From the NCBI RefSeq assembly GCF_900104615.1, contig NZ_LT629939.1, positions 2,211,315-2,275,314 on the forward strand: a stretch of 64,000 nt of DNA. Reading direction: 5' to 3'. The stretch comes from Merdimmobilis hominis (GTDB lineage Bacteria; Bacillota; Clostridia; Oscillospirales; Ruminococcaceae). The notes below the pieces were generated by a model that was not told the origin of the DNA, did no database searches, and worked only from the letters and a program-made list of their open reading frames with translations. Each line of letters opens with the position of its first letter. Position 1 is the first letter of the stretch. Both the position numbers and the translations under genes were made by a program. Positions 39,808 through 64,000 of the stretch are shown in pieces.

Positions 39808-40053
39808 TTAATGGATGGGTTTTGTATCCTGTTCGCGGAGATGGGCGACAAAACTCGCCAAGTATGGGATAAACTCCTCCACGGTGGGGATTTCCCCCTT
39901 GTGGGGGATGTTGTCCAACATGGAGCGGATCAACGGGCTTTGATCCTGTTTGCTGTATATGTCCAGGATGGCAAGCTGCATCTGTTCCCGCACGTATTCC
40001 GGGGACACCTTGTCTTTCCGGGCGATCTCTTTTAGAATATCATCTATATACAT
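39808..40053 (-). CDS. Small protein resembling the Spo0A C-terminal DNA-binding domain
   Basis: 81 residues from ATG 40053 behind AAAAGGAGG. The order of helices and phrases such as KVSPEYVREQMQLAILDIY and PTVEEFIPYLASFV resembles the last part of Spo0A (trans-activation helix region), without a receiver domain. If correct, it could bind DNA or compete with Spo0A. The similarity is by eye and weak. It is transcribed toward its own terminator. Confidence 0.45.
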   Translation of the reverse strand: MYIDDILKEIARKDKVSPEYVREQMQLAILDIYSKQDQSPLIRSMLDNIPHKGEIPTVEEFIPYLASFVAHLREQDTKPIH

Positions 40054-40103
40054 GGCGATGCCTCCTTTTTTAAGATTTTATGGGGCGCTGCACGGCCCCA
40101 AAC

Positions 40104-40459
40104 CCTAGCTACAAGGGGCTATGCCTGCCCCTTGAACCCCAGGTCGGGTGGGTTTTAACAAGATTCCATCTTGCAATAGTTTGTGGGGGCACGCACCCCC
40201 AAAGCCTAGCTACAAGGGGCTATGCCTGCCCCTTGAACCCCAGGCCCTCCTTTCTTACAGAAGAAAGGAGGCGAAAGACTGCCGGGGAGACCCCGGTCCC
40301 CCACTTCGCGGCAACTGGTACGCTCGGAAGATTTCCCTTAGAGGCTCTCCACGCCTCGAGCGGGAAATCTTTCCGCTAACGCGGATGCCCTCGCGGCACG
40401 GTCGAAGTCAGTACGGTCAGCATCAGCTGACTGTGCCCCCTTAAAAATCCCCCTGCGCG
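40104..40459 (+). repeat. Structured repeat element, left copy
   Basis: Contains a 40-base box present twice and identical (40104-40143 and 40205-40244, 101 bases apart), each with an AAGGGGC/GCCCCTT hairpin. Between them is a CAAGATTCCATCTTG palindrome (within 40157-40175). Downstream lie an 11-bp hairpin CCTCCTTTCTT/AAGAAAGGAGG, a CCGGGG/CCCCGG hairpin, a long imperfect stem around 40327-40375, the 20-mer 40390-40409, and CCCCCTTAAAAATCCCCCT at the end. The same order recurs inverted at 40792-40992. No credible coding frame. Confidence 0.78.
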
Positions 40460-40576
40460 TTTAGGAGGGGGAATTGAATCATTCAACGATATTATTTTAT
40501 ATTACTTTGTATTAAAAGTCAATACTTAGGATCATATTATAGTATTATCTTATTGATGAAAAAAGGGGGGATTACT

Positions 40577-40732
40577 ATGAGACCGCTAAAGCAGAGGGTT
40601 AGCCTTACTTTGGATGAGGATGTCATTGAAAGCGTCAAGCTTTTAGCGGAGGAATGTGATCGCTCATTTTCTCAATATGTAAACTTAGTTTTGAAAGAGC
40701 ATCTTGCACAAAAGAAGGAAAAACAACAATAA
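40577..40732 (+). CDS. Very small ribbon-helix-helix (CopG/Arc-like) protein
   Basis: 51 residues from ATG 40577, with AAAAGGGGGG 6 bases upstream. The sequence begins RPLKQRVSLTLDEDVIESVKLL, the beta-strand followed by helix of RHH DNA-binding proteins, then a second helix with RSFSQYVNLVLKEHL. RHH proteins are dimeric repressors or antitoxins; no toxin gene is next to it. It is AT-richer than its surroundings and sits exactly between the two inverted structured repeats. A TTGAATCATTCAA palindrome at 40474-40486 is a possible operator. Confidence 0.72.
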   Translation: MRPLKQRVSLTLDEDVIESVKLLAEECDRSFSQYVNLVLKEHLAQKKEKQQ

Positions 40733-40737
40733 AAAAC

Positions 40738-40768
40738 AAAACCCATTCATGTAGTTGAATGGGTTTTT
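40738..40768 (+). terminator. Terminator of the ribbon-helix-helix gene
   Basis: AAAACCCATTCA / TGAATGGGTTTT stem ending in TTTTT, 6 bases after the stop codon. Confidence 0.88.
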
Positions 40769-40791
40769 CTTATACAACTATAGTTCCCCTT

Positions 40792-40992
40792 GGCAGAGGG
40801 GGTTTTTTAAGGGGGGCCGGACTTCGACCGTGCCGCGAGCGGTTCGGCCCCCCTTAAATGTGCTTTTTCCCTCCCTTTTTTCACACAAAAAAGGGAGCGC
40901 GGGGTGCAGGGGTGCGCAACGCCCTGCATATCCACTGCAAGATGGAATCTTGTTCTGCACCGGGGTGCAGGGGTGACAGGCGCCCTGCATAA
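40792..40992 (-). repeat. Structured repeat element, right copy (inverted)
   Basis: Read on the minus strand it has the same plan as the left copy: a 30-base box twice (40963-40992 and 40901-40930, nearly identical), the CAAGATTCCATCTTG palindrome between them (40936-40954 is the exact reverse complement of 40157-40175), a GGGAGGG hairpin region, the 20-mer 40820-40839 that is the exact reverse complement of 40390-40409, and CCCCCTTAAAAAACCCCCT. The boxes themselves differ in sequence between copies while keeping their layout. More G-rich repetitive DNA continues to about 41060. Confidence 0.75.
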
Positions 40993-41083
40993 CCTCGGGG
41001 GTGTGGGGGCTGGAAGCCCTAGGAAATCAGGGTCATAGGGTGACAAGCCCTAGAAAATGGGTTGTAGGGGTGAAAGGCCCCTT

Positions 41084-42229
41084 TCACTCCACCCCATGCT
41101 TGGCCCGGTAGTTGGCCAGCAGAAGATCCACCATCCGGCCGTAGCTGGCCACCCCGTCGGTCTGGCGGTTGGCCTTTAAATAGGTGTCGTTGACCTTGTC
41201 GGAGACCTCCGCCACTGGGCCTTCAAACTGGGCCCAATAGCGGGATTGAGCGGCAAAATCCCGCTGCACCCCAGGGGAATAGGTGGCGTAGAGTTCACAA
41301 AACCGCTCATAATCCGCCTGATACAAGGTGTTCATGGCATACATGGCCGCCATGGAGGCCCCGCTGTATTGGATGGCTTGGTCCTCCGACTCCATGCAGG
41401 CCAGATAGGCGATAAAGTTGGCTTCATCTTCCCGCATAAAGCCCCGCAGATGCGCTTGTTCATGGCACATGGTGAAAGGGAGGGTGAAATCCGGCACGTC
41501 GATGTTGACATTGGCCTCCATGCTCCAACAGGTGAACACCCCAGTGATTTGGGTATAGGACCACAAATGGGAGAGCAGCACCGGTTTGGGCGGGCTGTAA
41601 TCCCCTCCGAGGGCAGGGATTTCCTGTGCCAAGCGGTGGAATCCAGTCCGGCTGGCTTTGCCGGTGGCAAAGACCGATTTTTCCAGCTGGAACACCCCTT
41701 CTTCGTCTTCGGGGAGGCCTTCCCGCAAGCGGTTGGCGTCAGCGATCAAATCCACGCAGGCGAGGGCCAGTTCCTCTGCACTGCTGGGCCGGACGGTGAG
41801 CCCTGCATGCCAGGCAAAGGGCATCCGGCTGTAATTGACCCCACAGGTGACGACAAAAATAAAATAGAAGCCTGCGGCCACTGCCAGCAAAGTGGAGAGG
41901 AGGTTGAGAAGCCTTTGCCGTTGTTCCCCAGGGGAGCGCACCGCCTTGCGGATGGAGAGAACCACCCAGGCAACGGCGGCGGGGATGCCAAGCACCACCG
42001 TGAACTCCGCCAAGGAGAGGGGGACAAGGCCGGTGATCCGGTTGAACATTTGGGATAGGATGGGGTAATACCCCCCGCTGAAAAGCCGCTCAGTCCGCTC
42101 CGGATCCTGGCTGGCAAACTGGGAAAGGCCCATCCCCAGGGGGACCAGCAGAAGGAAGAGAAGCCTCCGGGGGAGGCGCAGTTTTTCCCGGAGAGGAGCG
42201 CTGGGGGTAGATGGATGGGAAATGATCAC
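41084..42229 (-). CDS. Membrane protein with metallopeptidase-like motif (DUF3810-like)
   Basis: 381 residues from GTG 42229 behind GGAGGG. Three N-terminal membrane spans (LLFLLLVPLGMGLS; LAEFTVVLGIPAAVAWVVL; LAVAAGFYFIFVVTCG) are followed by an extracellular domain with HEQAHLRGFMREDEANFIAYL, an HExxH motif plus downstream glutamate, as in zinc metallopeptidases. I associate this with DUF3810. Substrate unknown. Transcribed separately from the hydrolase-like gene upstream, which has its own terminator. Confidence 0.7.
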   Translation of the reverse strand: MIISHPSTPSAPLREKLRLPRRLLFLLLVPLGMGLSQFASQDPERTERLFSGGYYPILSQMFNRITGLVPLSLAEFTVVLGIPAAVAWVVLSIRKAVRSPGEQRQRLLNLLSTLLAVAAGFYFIFVVTCGVNYSRMPFAWHAGLTVRPSSAEELALACVDLIADANRLREGLPEDEEGVFQLEKSVFATGKASRTGFHRLAQEIPALGGDYSPPKPVLLSHLWSYTQITGVFTCWSMEANVNIDVPDFTLPFTMCHEQAHLRGFMREDEANFIAYLACMESEDQAIQYSGASMAAMYAMNTLYQADYERFCELYATYSPGVQRDFAAQSRYWAQFEGPVAEVSDKVNDTYLKANRQTDGVASYGRMVDLLLANYRAKHGVE

Positions 42230-49724: not shown

Positions 49725-49821
49725 TGGCGGGAGTATGTGGGAATCGAACCCACCTAAGCAGCTGTTCACCACTATCACTGGTTTTGAAGACCAGGGGGCA
49801 CACCAGCACCCATCTACTCCC
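49725..49821 (-). tRNA. selC: tRNA-Sec (anticodon UCA)
   Basis: 97 bases on the minus strand, with encoded CCA at 49727-49725. GGGAGTA acceptor stem pairs with TACTCCC; the T-arm GTGGGTTCGATTCCCAC is perfect; the anticodon loop CTTCAAA gives UCA at 49787-49785; and a long variable arm (AGTGATAGTGGTGAACAGCTGCTT region) and extended D-arm are visible. This is the selenocysteine tRNA that reads the in-frame UGA codons of grdA and grdB. Confidence 0.93.
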
Positions 49822-60764: not shown

Positions 60765-62075
60765 CTAGTTTTCAAAAATAGTCTGCTCAGTAACCTCGGT
60801 GGAAAGGGCTTTCAATGCAGTGTCAAGAATTCTTCTGCGGATAGCTTTCTCCTCCTCAAGAGTCAGAGCAGGGTTGCCCAGAGGATGGGGGATAGCAATG
60901 GCGGGAACAATTCTGTTAGCGCCAACAGTCATGGAGATGGGGGTAACTGTGCAGATATGAACGACCGGGATACCAGCGCGCTCAATCTCTTTAACCATCG
61001 TTGCACCGCAACGAGTACAGGTGCCTCAGGTCGATGTGAGGATAACCGCGTCAACATTGGCATCCTTCAGCTCTTTGGAGAACTCATCTGCAAAGCCCTT
61101 GGCGCTCTTAACAGCGGTACCGTTACCAACGGTGGTGTAGAAGTATCTGTGCAGCTTGCCGATCTTGCCCTCTTTCTCATACTCTCTGAGAATGTCAACA
61201 GGCAGGACGCGGTCAGCATCCTCGTTGGCGTAGACAGGGTCGTAGCCGCCGTGAGCGGTCTCGTAAGTGTCGGCAGTCAGATCCATAACGCCCTCAATGT
61301 CATACTTGCCGTATTTGGAAGCAGAGGAGGACTCGATGTGATCGGGGTTGCCTTTGGGGACGATACCGCCAGAGGTTACCAGAGCGATGGTAGCATGGGC
61401 GATGTCCTTGACAGCGGGGTTGGGAGCAACACGGTCGAAGTCAGGCATGGGGAACTCGGTGACGAACTCTTTGCCAGCCAGTTTCTTCAGCAGCATGTCG
61501 ATAGCGCGGGCGGAACCTCTCTTGGTGTCGAAGAAGTTCTTCCGGACGCCGTTGGGCATATAACCTTCCTCAGCGGAAGCACCGATCTTCTCACCTTTAG
61601 CCAGCTTCAGGGCGAGGGGAGCCATCTTCTTGACAGCATCTCTCATGCCAGCAGCGCTGTTTTTGGTGGCGACGATGTAAACGGAGTTTTTGAACATGTC
61701 TGCGCCGGGGTTCTCAACGTACATACCGGTCAGGACAGGGATGCCCAGCTCTTTTTTGACAGCGTCAGCGATGGTGCCGCAAGCGACGCCATAACGGCCA
61801 GCGTTGAAAGCAGGACCAGCCAGGAACATGTCAGCGTTCTGGGATTTAACCATGTCGATAACGGTCTTTTTGGCTTCTTCCAGGTTCTCGTTGAAGTAGG
61901 AGTCACCGCAGATAACAGTGGCAACGATCTCAGCCTCATCGCCGAAAGCCTGATTGAAAGCTGCGCCAGGGCCTACAACGCCCTCTCTCAGCTCAGGTTT
62001 GATATCAGCCTTTTCCTCACCGCCGATGTTGGCGAAGAACTGGTTGATGTAGTGTACTACTCTAATTTTAGCCAT
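60765..62075 (-). CDS. grdB: Glycine reductase selenoprotein B, gamma subunit (GrdB), UGA read as selenocysteine
   Basis: 436 residues if TGA 61028-61026 is read as selenocysteine at codon 350, in the motif U-G-T-C-T-R-C; without that the frame would end at 349. Protein B binds glycine through the GrdE pyruvoyl group and transfers its carboxymethyl part to the selenocysteine. The sequence after the TGA is intact and of family type (MVKEIERAGIPVVHICTVTP). A candidate SECIS hairpin starts 12 bases after the UGA. Confidence 0.95.
60999..61013 (-). promoter_or_regulatory. Candidate SECIS hairpin of grdB
   Basis: CGTTGC (61013-61008) and GCAACG (61004-60999) form a perfect 6-bp stem with GGT apical loop, 12 bases after the UGA. 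Bacterial SECIS hairpins lie within about 10-40 bases of the UGA and often have a GG(U) apical loop. Confidence 0.6.
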
Positions 62076-63848: not shown

Positions 63849-63909
63849 AAAAACAGAGCAAAACGCACCCTTTTATAGAAATAAAAATAAAATGGTGCAT
63901 CCCGCTCTG
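63849..63909 (-). terminator. Riboswitch-controlled terminator
   Basis: On the minus strand CAGAGC (63909-63904) pairs with GCTCTG (63859-63854), and GCACC with GGGTGC inside, in a long hairpin closed by TTTTTGT. Its 5' half overlaps the 3' strand of the aptamer P1 stem, so glycine binding would prevent termination and turn the operon on. Confidence 0.8.
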
Positions 63910-64000
63910 TATCTAACCTGAGAGATTCTCCCTTGAGGGGGATTGCTCCGTCGGTGCTTACGCTCTCCAGAGGTTTGTCGGATTGCGGTGTTGGGACCTG
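63904..64000 (-). promoter_or_regulatory. Glycine riboswitch (last aptamer complete, first aptamer cut by window end)
   Basis: On the minus strand the glycine-aptamer pieces are visible: CTCTGGAGAG, GCACCGACGGAGCAA, and AATCTCTCAGG, with P1 closed by CTCTG/CAGAG. Before it, CAGGTCCCAACACCGCAATCC is the usual end of the first aptamer and linker, so the riboswitch is probably tandem, extending beyond the window. It controls grdX and the following operon. Confidence 0.9.

Follow-up and report, generated by a model that had tools for sequence, protein, structure and literature searches.

The DNA analysed here, referred to as the window, is a stretch of 64,000 nucleotides from Merdimmobilis hominis (contig NZ_LT629939.1), and coordinates given without further specification are positions within it. 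Between two genes of the minus strand (39808-40053 and 41084-42229), the intergenic gap is filled by a single copy of what is probably a mobile, non-autonomous element, both ends of which are structured. The approximate ends of this copy are 40076 and 41086; matches to its modules stop at 41033, and the right end (to about 41086) was set by eye over weaker box-like sequence. An earlier note on this DNA had placed a structured element at 40104-40992. The element is indeed present there, but it is wider and takes up the whole gap.

Architecture of the window copy

Each half of the element, when its outward strand is followed, ends in a GC hairpin, a strand of 4-6 nt, a T-run, and a second hairpin with a loop able to pair with that strand, an arrangement that corresponds to an H-type pseudoknot. 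On the left, an array of outward-pointing REP-like boxes of types e, h and d (40076-40244, minus strand) includes the palindrome CAAGATTCCATCTTG between boxes (40159-40173). The left outward pseudoknot end follows at 40246-40281 (minus strand), with its stem at 40246-40256 and 40261-40271, the loop ACAG at 40257-40260 and the partner CTG at 40279-40281. This end is weak, as it forms three Watson-Crick pairs and one G-T pair, and it was missed by the strict scanner described below. Further inside lie the P1 hairpin CCGGGGAGACCCCGG (40282-40296, minus strand) and the P3 stem of the A half (40326-40374, minus strand), which shows compensatory changes among copies. At the motif CTCGCGG (40390-40396), the A half is joined to the inner part of an inverted B-type half in its long form (40390-40454, minus strand; 95% identity by BLAST over query positions 6-70), the fusion point being placed from the repeats and from comparison with other copies.

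The centre is occupied by a gene for a ribbon-helix-helix (RHH) protein of 51 amino acids (40577-40732, plus strand, an open reading frame starting at ATG), read below as a passenger, with a hairpin or terminator-like repeat on its 3' side (40738-40767). The right part is a B half in its short form. It comprises a terminator-like hairpin with a T-run at the inner edge (40785-40808, plus strand), the P5 hairpin in the position equivalent to P1 (40806-40858, plus strand), the right outward pseudoknot end (40858-40897, plus strand; strand TGTG at 40859-40862, stem 40871-40881/40887-40897, loop CACA at 40882-40885), and an array of outward-pointing REP-like boxes of types g, g and b (40900-41040, plus strand) with the palindrome CAAGATGGAATCTTG between boxes (40938-40952). 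A terminator-like hairpin with a T-run is also seen at the other inner edge of B-type sequence in the window (40449-40468), and the inner-edge T-run also contributes to the P5 stem, an overlap that might act as an attenuator-like switch.

The inverted repeats described in the earlier note are all present, as are the RHH reading frame and the hairpin behind it. They comprise 19 nt with 100% complementarity (40157-40175 with 40936-40954), 29 nt with 86% (40381-40409 with 40820-40848), which include the exact 20-mer of that note, and 19 nt with 95% (40436-40454 with 40797-40815). The twin boxes measure 48 nt on the left (98%, 101 bp apart) and 34 nt on the right (82%, 61 bp apart). The view of the two arms as copies of one thing had to be given up, since the left arm is an A-type half plus an inverted B piece and the right arm is a B-type half. 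As a whole, the copy in the window is mosaic: an A half, intact up to CTCGCGG, runs on there into the interior portion of a long-form B half in inverted orientation, after which come the RHH gene and a short-form B half. The long inverted repeat of the window exists because the A half was fused to a piece of an inverted B half, which stands opposite an ordinary B half.

Copies and RHH genes in the host genome

In the 2.58-Mb genome of the host, the palindrome of the left array was found in 19 exact copies, against none for the reversed control, and BLAST searches with the arm modules gave 22 A matches and 29 B matches, some of the latter being pieces of one copy. The repeats of the window are thus more than chance. 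The earlier note had proposed counting the copies, and the count arrived at is 26 intergenic loci (27 clusters minus one fragment of 24 nt). A and B have the same orientation in 18 of the 26, with 31-43 bp between them in 14 of those 18. Other loci hold an inverted B facing B (two), an inverted B facing A (one), A only (three) or B only (one), and the window copy alone has the order A, inverted B, B. Box type and number vary among the copies; 98 of the 99 boxes outside the halves point outward, and two more boxes lie inside a compound locus. The elements sit between genes of every orientation, as called with a simple codon-usage gene caller, and this speaks against a constant regulatory role in cis.

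The explanation to which the earlier note would have fallen back is simple local duplication, here a recent event that copied a single sequence around a gene. The exact inverted repeats of 19 and 20 nt agree with it; 26 dispersed loci with the same layout, together with relatives across the order, do not, and we regard it as very improbable indeed. Eleven element loci lie within 52 kb (G000:C3, the host genome, 2443182-2495593), between different genes; no dnaA was seen at the start of the host contig, so the position of this cluster at 2.44-2.50 Mb could not be compared with that of the replication origin. The signal of local hopping in the host is weak (Mantel r -0.185, with 918 of 20,000 permutations as low). 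Additionally, a fragment of the element (L040 / L110, G000:C3, about 2048224-2048444) lies between two putative tail genes of the host's own prophage.

The RHH protein of the window is CopG-like, with weak Pfam matches to DUF6364, CopG_antitoxin and RHH_5, all below the cut-offs, and one real match in the host genome. A type II toxin-antitoxin operon was considered and rejected, as no toxin gene is adjacent and the CopG_antitoxin match is below its cut-off; by inspection, no other plausible gene lies between the arms around the window RHH gene. Intact RHH genes were found inside three elements, namely the window copy, the copy at 696213-696745, and the one in which such a gene stands before the second B at 1742878. 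The copy at 1980415 (L037) has kept both flanks of the RHH region of the 696-kb copy (L001) and lost most of the gene; to judge from its sequence, it is an internal-deletion derivative, produced by the kind of deletion that makes MITEs. Two further RHH genes, both Arc-like, lie just outside an element.

The genes found inside or beside elements are of two different RHH types, which differ in their orientation relative to B. In 22 of the 26 loci, no match to either type was detected inside, and the idea that RHH homologs always lie between arms does not hold: besides these loci and the two genes beside elements, a relative of the window protein occurs elsewhere. This relative, encoded in genome G691 (L249 1678-1836, G691:C8), is 56% identical to the window RHH over 43 amino acids. 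Its gene precedes one that resembles a glycyl-tRNA synthetase gene, and no arms were noticed on reading 1.4 kb there. In 492 kb from other genomes, comprising 100 loci that overlap in part, it was the only relative of the five RHH proteins detected. The leader of this glyS-like gene resembles a T-box, and genome G696 lacks an RHH gene at that place. One host Arc-like RHH gene (L131 8129-8362) is also near a glycyl-tRNA-synthetase-like gene.

Because the RHH genes are of two types and the G691 relative stands at another kind of place, they are read as passengers, and it is fairly likely that the window gene is a passenger rather than the element's own regulator. If the RHH protein were instead a regulator or accessory factor of the element, it could for example bind the 15-bp palindrome, whose shape, CAAGAT-N3-ATCTTG, we take to be that of an RHH operator. 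All five Arc-like matches in the genome lie inside an element or no more than about 300 bp from one, which points the same way, such stretches making up about 1% of the genome by a post hoc estimate. This role is nevertheless rather unlikely in view of the two types with their different orientations relative to B, the 22 loci holding neither, and the position of the G691 gene at a glyS-like leader.

Predicted folded ends and their distribution in the order

The loop-strand pairing of the ends was assessed by shuffle tests in which loops were reassigned among halves. Over 18 B halves (those parsed among 28 B matches), 71 of 72 loop-strand pairs are formed, and none of 100,000 shuffles was as good; among 16 non-redundant B halves, the figure is 63 of 64 pairs, reached by one shuffle in 100,000. 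For the A halves, complementarity was 71.5 against a shuffle mean of 63.75, with one of 3,000 shuffles as good, in a test that covered 14 of 22 halves (eight were unparsed, and the 22 come from 24 A matches, two of which lack the P1 anchor). The A halves support loop-strand pairing less strongly than the B halves.

In a 10-sequence alignment (A4), all four B pseudoknot pairs are present in every sequence, three of them with changes on both sides, and in different copies with the same hairpin type the strand and the loop still differ together. The P3 helix has five compensatory positions, at which the pair type switches, and four unpaired cells. In a three-genome alignment, 92.9% of the pseudoknot cells are paired, compared with 48.8% for this helix when alignment columns were misplaced, and on four of five measures the whole structure outscored every one of 500 shuffles. 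Since copies within one genome are related, covariation counts are not independent events, and stem covariation could in part stem from hairpin-directed template switching. The compensatory base changes that the earlier note had proposed to look for are present in P3 and in the pseudoknot. Together with the 26 host loci and the relatives across the order, they bear out its suggestion of selected structure rather than local duplication.

A covariance model built from the A half (R2) was used to scan 149 genomes and matched three of them: the host and two genomes, G061 and G451, from other families of the order, with weak best E values of 1.2e-4 and 6.7e-4 and with 5 and 6 matches, respectively. 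In the R2 matches examined, the end module is the same and the sequence is different. A pattern for the end module found 40 copies in G061 and 15 in G451, against none for the reversed control, and locus L144 is a true copy. In G451, a change of the loop from AGCGGC to AGTGGC is accompanied by a change of the strand from CCGC to CCAC, with one exception, and locus L168 was recognised by reading as a complete element of two inverted halves around about 150 bp. Many G451 ends (L152-L180) carry two hairpin-strand units in a row, in which the strand after the first runs into the second stem. G061 holds two elements in tandem (G061:C50, L226 10208-10684 and 10924-11400), 95.7% identical and 716 bp apart, which are a recent local duplication.

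A second covariance model (R3), comprising 53 positions of the end module with two hairpins and with the pseudoknot left out, matched 30 genomes, the host among them, out of 394 from the order, at a limit of E <= 0.01 per genome, at which about 4 of 394 would be expected by chance; in 13 genomes, the best E was <= 1e-4. Among 315 good-quality genomes, 25 were matched. Copy numbers obtained with R3 are lower bounds, as at most 14 candidates were scored per genome. In G696, 11 of the 13 matches obtained under this cap cluster round the contig start (L218-L222, G696:C1, 2.83-2.90 Mb and 0-40 kb), where a dnaA-like gene is located.

The most independent evidence for the pseudoknot is its presence in R3 matches outside the model. 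In 19 best matches from genomes not used for the model, loop-strand complementarity reached 69 compared with a shuffle mean of 41.8, and none of 20,000 shuffles was as high. The test started from 24 matches, of which three from model genomes were excluded and 19 of the remaining 21 were parsed (L199 and L204 were unparsed); two of the tested genomes, G513 and G576, are congeners of a model genome. Two of the 19 matches, L192 and L201, have no complementarity.

The strict scanner detected 77 end motifs in stretches totalling 672 kb that had been selected because they contain elements, none in one set of shuffled copies, and one in 215 kb of unrelated loci. Fourteen pairs of ends are divergent (minus then plus) and span 264-825 bp, in stretches of G670, G690, G696, G061 and G513; the other neighbours within 900 bp are two convergent and three same-direction pairs. 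As divergent pairs predominate, the unit is one in which two ends with the same fold face outward.

These observations also bear on neutral palindromes, in which template switching at DNA hairpins would produce the complementary changes, no function would be under selection, and the copies would be old duplications. Long perfect stems and mosaics at short shared motifs would suit such an origin. However, the pairing of loop and strand crosses the stem and persists in genomes whose sequences are otherwise different, and the T-run spacing and the divergent pairing recur across the order, so that we consider this origin quite improbable.

Plain sequence searches from the window locus turned up no relative beyond the host that was convincing. 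The A-B compound, sought in 81 genomes, was found in the host only, apart from a 22-nt match in G028 in apparently coding DNA. The palindrome, which the earlier note had suggested as a query for relatives, occurs once in one of 395 other genomes of the family, taken as chance. A pattern for the A core matched 28 stretches in named contigs of scattered taxa; two that were inspected are coding-like, the rest were taken as chance, and the candidates were dropped. Among viral contigs, only the contig of the host's own prophage was matched and two further patterns matched nothing; one stretch matched by a hairpin-consensus pattern was judged coding by inspection and set aside. Phage and plasmid collections, which may leave out records of the host or its very near kin, gave no match for the window element or the G061 element, nor did the phage collection for the G696 element.

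The whole window was scanned with Rfam 15, and no match was found in the element. At E <= 5, the Rfam matches overlapping elements at four loci were far below the gathering scores, and membership in a known RNA family was rejected, as no Rfam 15 score exceeded the gathering threshold. Elsewhere in the window, a tRNA-Sec (49725-49821, minus strand), a SECIS_4 element (60988-61025, minus strand) and a glycine riboswitch (63897-63980, minus strand) were noted; the host probably makes selenoproteins. No description of the element was found in the literature searched, which lay mostly outside subscription journals.

Probable mobility, proposed recognition and related systems

Differences in the presence of the element were observed between G696 and its congener G691, a pair from another family of the order than the host. 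Two G696 elements (L221 11622-12244 and 5127-5752, of 623 and 626 bp) have inverted boxes at both ends, and three G696 copies have terminal inverted repeats (..TTCCGCCCTG.. / ..CAGGGCGGAA..) at both ends. On the syntenic contig of G691, the element is absent at two of the three sites occupied in G696, where the stop-to-ATG distances are 682 and 689 bp in G696 versus 43 and 6 bp in G691. At the third site (dnaA-dnaN), G691 holds a degenerate half. With two of three sites lacking it in the congener, the element is read as non-autonomous and mobile. The empty sites are not base-precise, and their flanks have diverged. At the first site, one of two similar neighbouring genes is likewise missing from G691, and at the second, conservation of the small gene next to the gap is poor. 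In both cases, G691 could have lost the element.

Some transposons make no target-site duplication. The earlier note had proposed looking for such duplications, and the three G696 copies that have a terminal box at each end show no visible one. Its suggestion of a non-autonomous mobile element gains support from the 26 host loci, the relatives across the order, and the two empty sites in the congener genome. We hold with good confidence that this is a mobile two-ended element with selected folded ends.

As to the strand that folds, the outward strand of host halves has the more stable fold in 12 of 16 of type A (p 0.011) and in 18 of 20 of type B (p 0.0003); in other genomes, this signal is weak (p 0.46 for left ends and 0.04 for right ends). 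Wobble pairs in the stems (8 G-T versus 3 A-C) are too few to decide the strand, and their signature is mixed in the host. The outward strand is probably the folded one. Since the ends are paired, divergent and polymorphic in presence, folded single-stranded DNA is favoured over RNA, and the chance that the ends are recognised in this form seems to us just short of even.

A structured RNA could instead be the product, with transcripts that begin within the element and run outward in both directions, and whose 3' pseudoknot stabilises the RNA or regulates neighbouring genes. H-type pseudoknots with a U-rich first loop are known from telomerase RNA and ENE, and the ends described here likewise have a strand, a U-run, a stem with U-A pairs near the loop, and loop-strand pairing. 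In geometric terms, where a T-run lies on the 5' side of a stem that carries T-A pairs near its loop, the spacing would allow a U-A-U triple in RNA, and the T-run 5' of the hairpin and the TTT/AAA by the loop would suit a triple of the telomerase/ENE type. Unlike those RNAs, the element is a bacterial intergenic repeat with two outward-facing ends, in which a triple helix is hypothetical. The more stable folding of the outward strand in host halves, the covariation of loop and strand, and promoter-like matches around the window copy (5 versus 1.4 expected) are also consistent with an RNA. Against these points, elements occur in every gene orientation, the ends form divergent pairs, two sites in the congener lack the element, and no Rfam family matches. 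An RNA product is accordingly a possibility that we rate as unlikely, and we give no higher rating to its specific form, in which the U-rich first loop of the pseudoknot faces the A-U-rich stem.

Among known intergenic repeats, BOX elements of Streptococcus pneumoniae are modular and have stable predicted folds, and the element resembles them in both respects; its modules differ, and we know of no pseudoknot ends in BOX elements. Judged by the general properties of MITEs, the element has dispersed copies without a transposase gene, terminal inverted repeats (in G696) and empty sites that are not base-precise, and it shows no target-site duplication in three copies. Like bacterial MITEs such as RUP, ERIC/IRU and Correia, it is short, intergenic and devoid of a transposase gene, with inverted boxes at both ends and insertion polymorphism (PMC2229807). 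Unlike them, it is highly structured, divergent within one genome, and mosaic at its ends, and it shows no target duplication.

REPINs consist of two hairpin ends in inverted orientation and are intergenic and non-autonomous, with spacings of 71 or 110 bp (PMC3116915, in part). The element shares two inverted hairpin-bearing ends, intergenic position, multiple copies and non-autonomy with them, its boxes resemble REPs (PMC3116915, PMC6006769, both in part), and the inverted pair of hairpin repeats recurs here as the divergent end pairs. A REPIN-like element moved by a RAYT or an IS200/IS605-type single-strand (Y1) transposase would share this two-ended, non-autonomous, intergenic unit. However, the units of 264-825 bp exceed the REPIN spacings, and each end has a covarying loop-strand pseudoknot, a feature that the part of PMC3116915 consulted does not mention for REPINs. 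Moreover, no match to PF01797 (Y1 transposase) was found in the host genome, compared with matches in 5 of 14 control genomes, which leaves a REPIN/RAYT mechanism, and a RAYT/Y1 origin, unsupported in the host. We consider such a mode of movement improbable.

Returning to a mobile element with folded ends, its ends would be recognised in folded single-strand form, as DNA or less likely as RNA, by an enzyme supplied in trans, and the REP-like boxes may act as the outermost terminal repeats. Copies may recombine at shared motifs such as CTCGCGG, giving rise to mosaics like the window copy, and RHH genes may be carried as passengers between the halves and later lost through internal deletion.

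Small non-autonomous mobile elements are a known kind, and the pseudoknotted structured ends are the new feature. On a broader and tentative proposal, with somewhat less than even chances of being right, these elements would form an order-wide class whose ends are defined not by a fixed sequence but by an outward H-type pseudoknot, the first loop of which is rich in T(U). This fold would persist through a nearly complete change in the sequence of both ends and interior, and a putative recombinase would recognise it in the form of folded single strands, either DNA or RNA. Small non-coding mobile repeats are usually recognised by sequence; the conserved property here is a fold with a crossing helix, found across genomes whose element sequences hardly align. 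If the proposal is true, it would explain why sequence searches from the window locus gave nothing convincing outside the host. The hairpin, the loop-strand complementarity and the T-run would provide a search handle for elements that match no Rfam 15 family, and the recognition of transposon ends as pseudoknots, as well as the enzyme responsible, would become testable.
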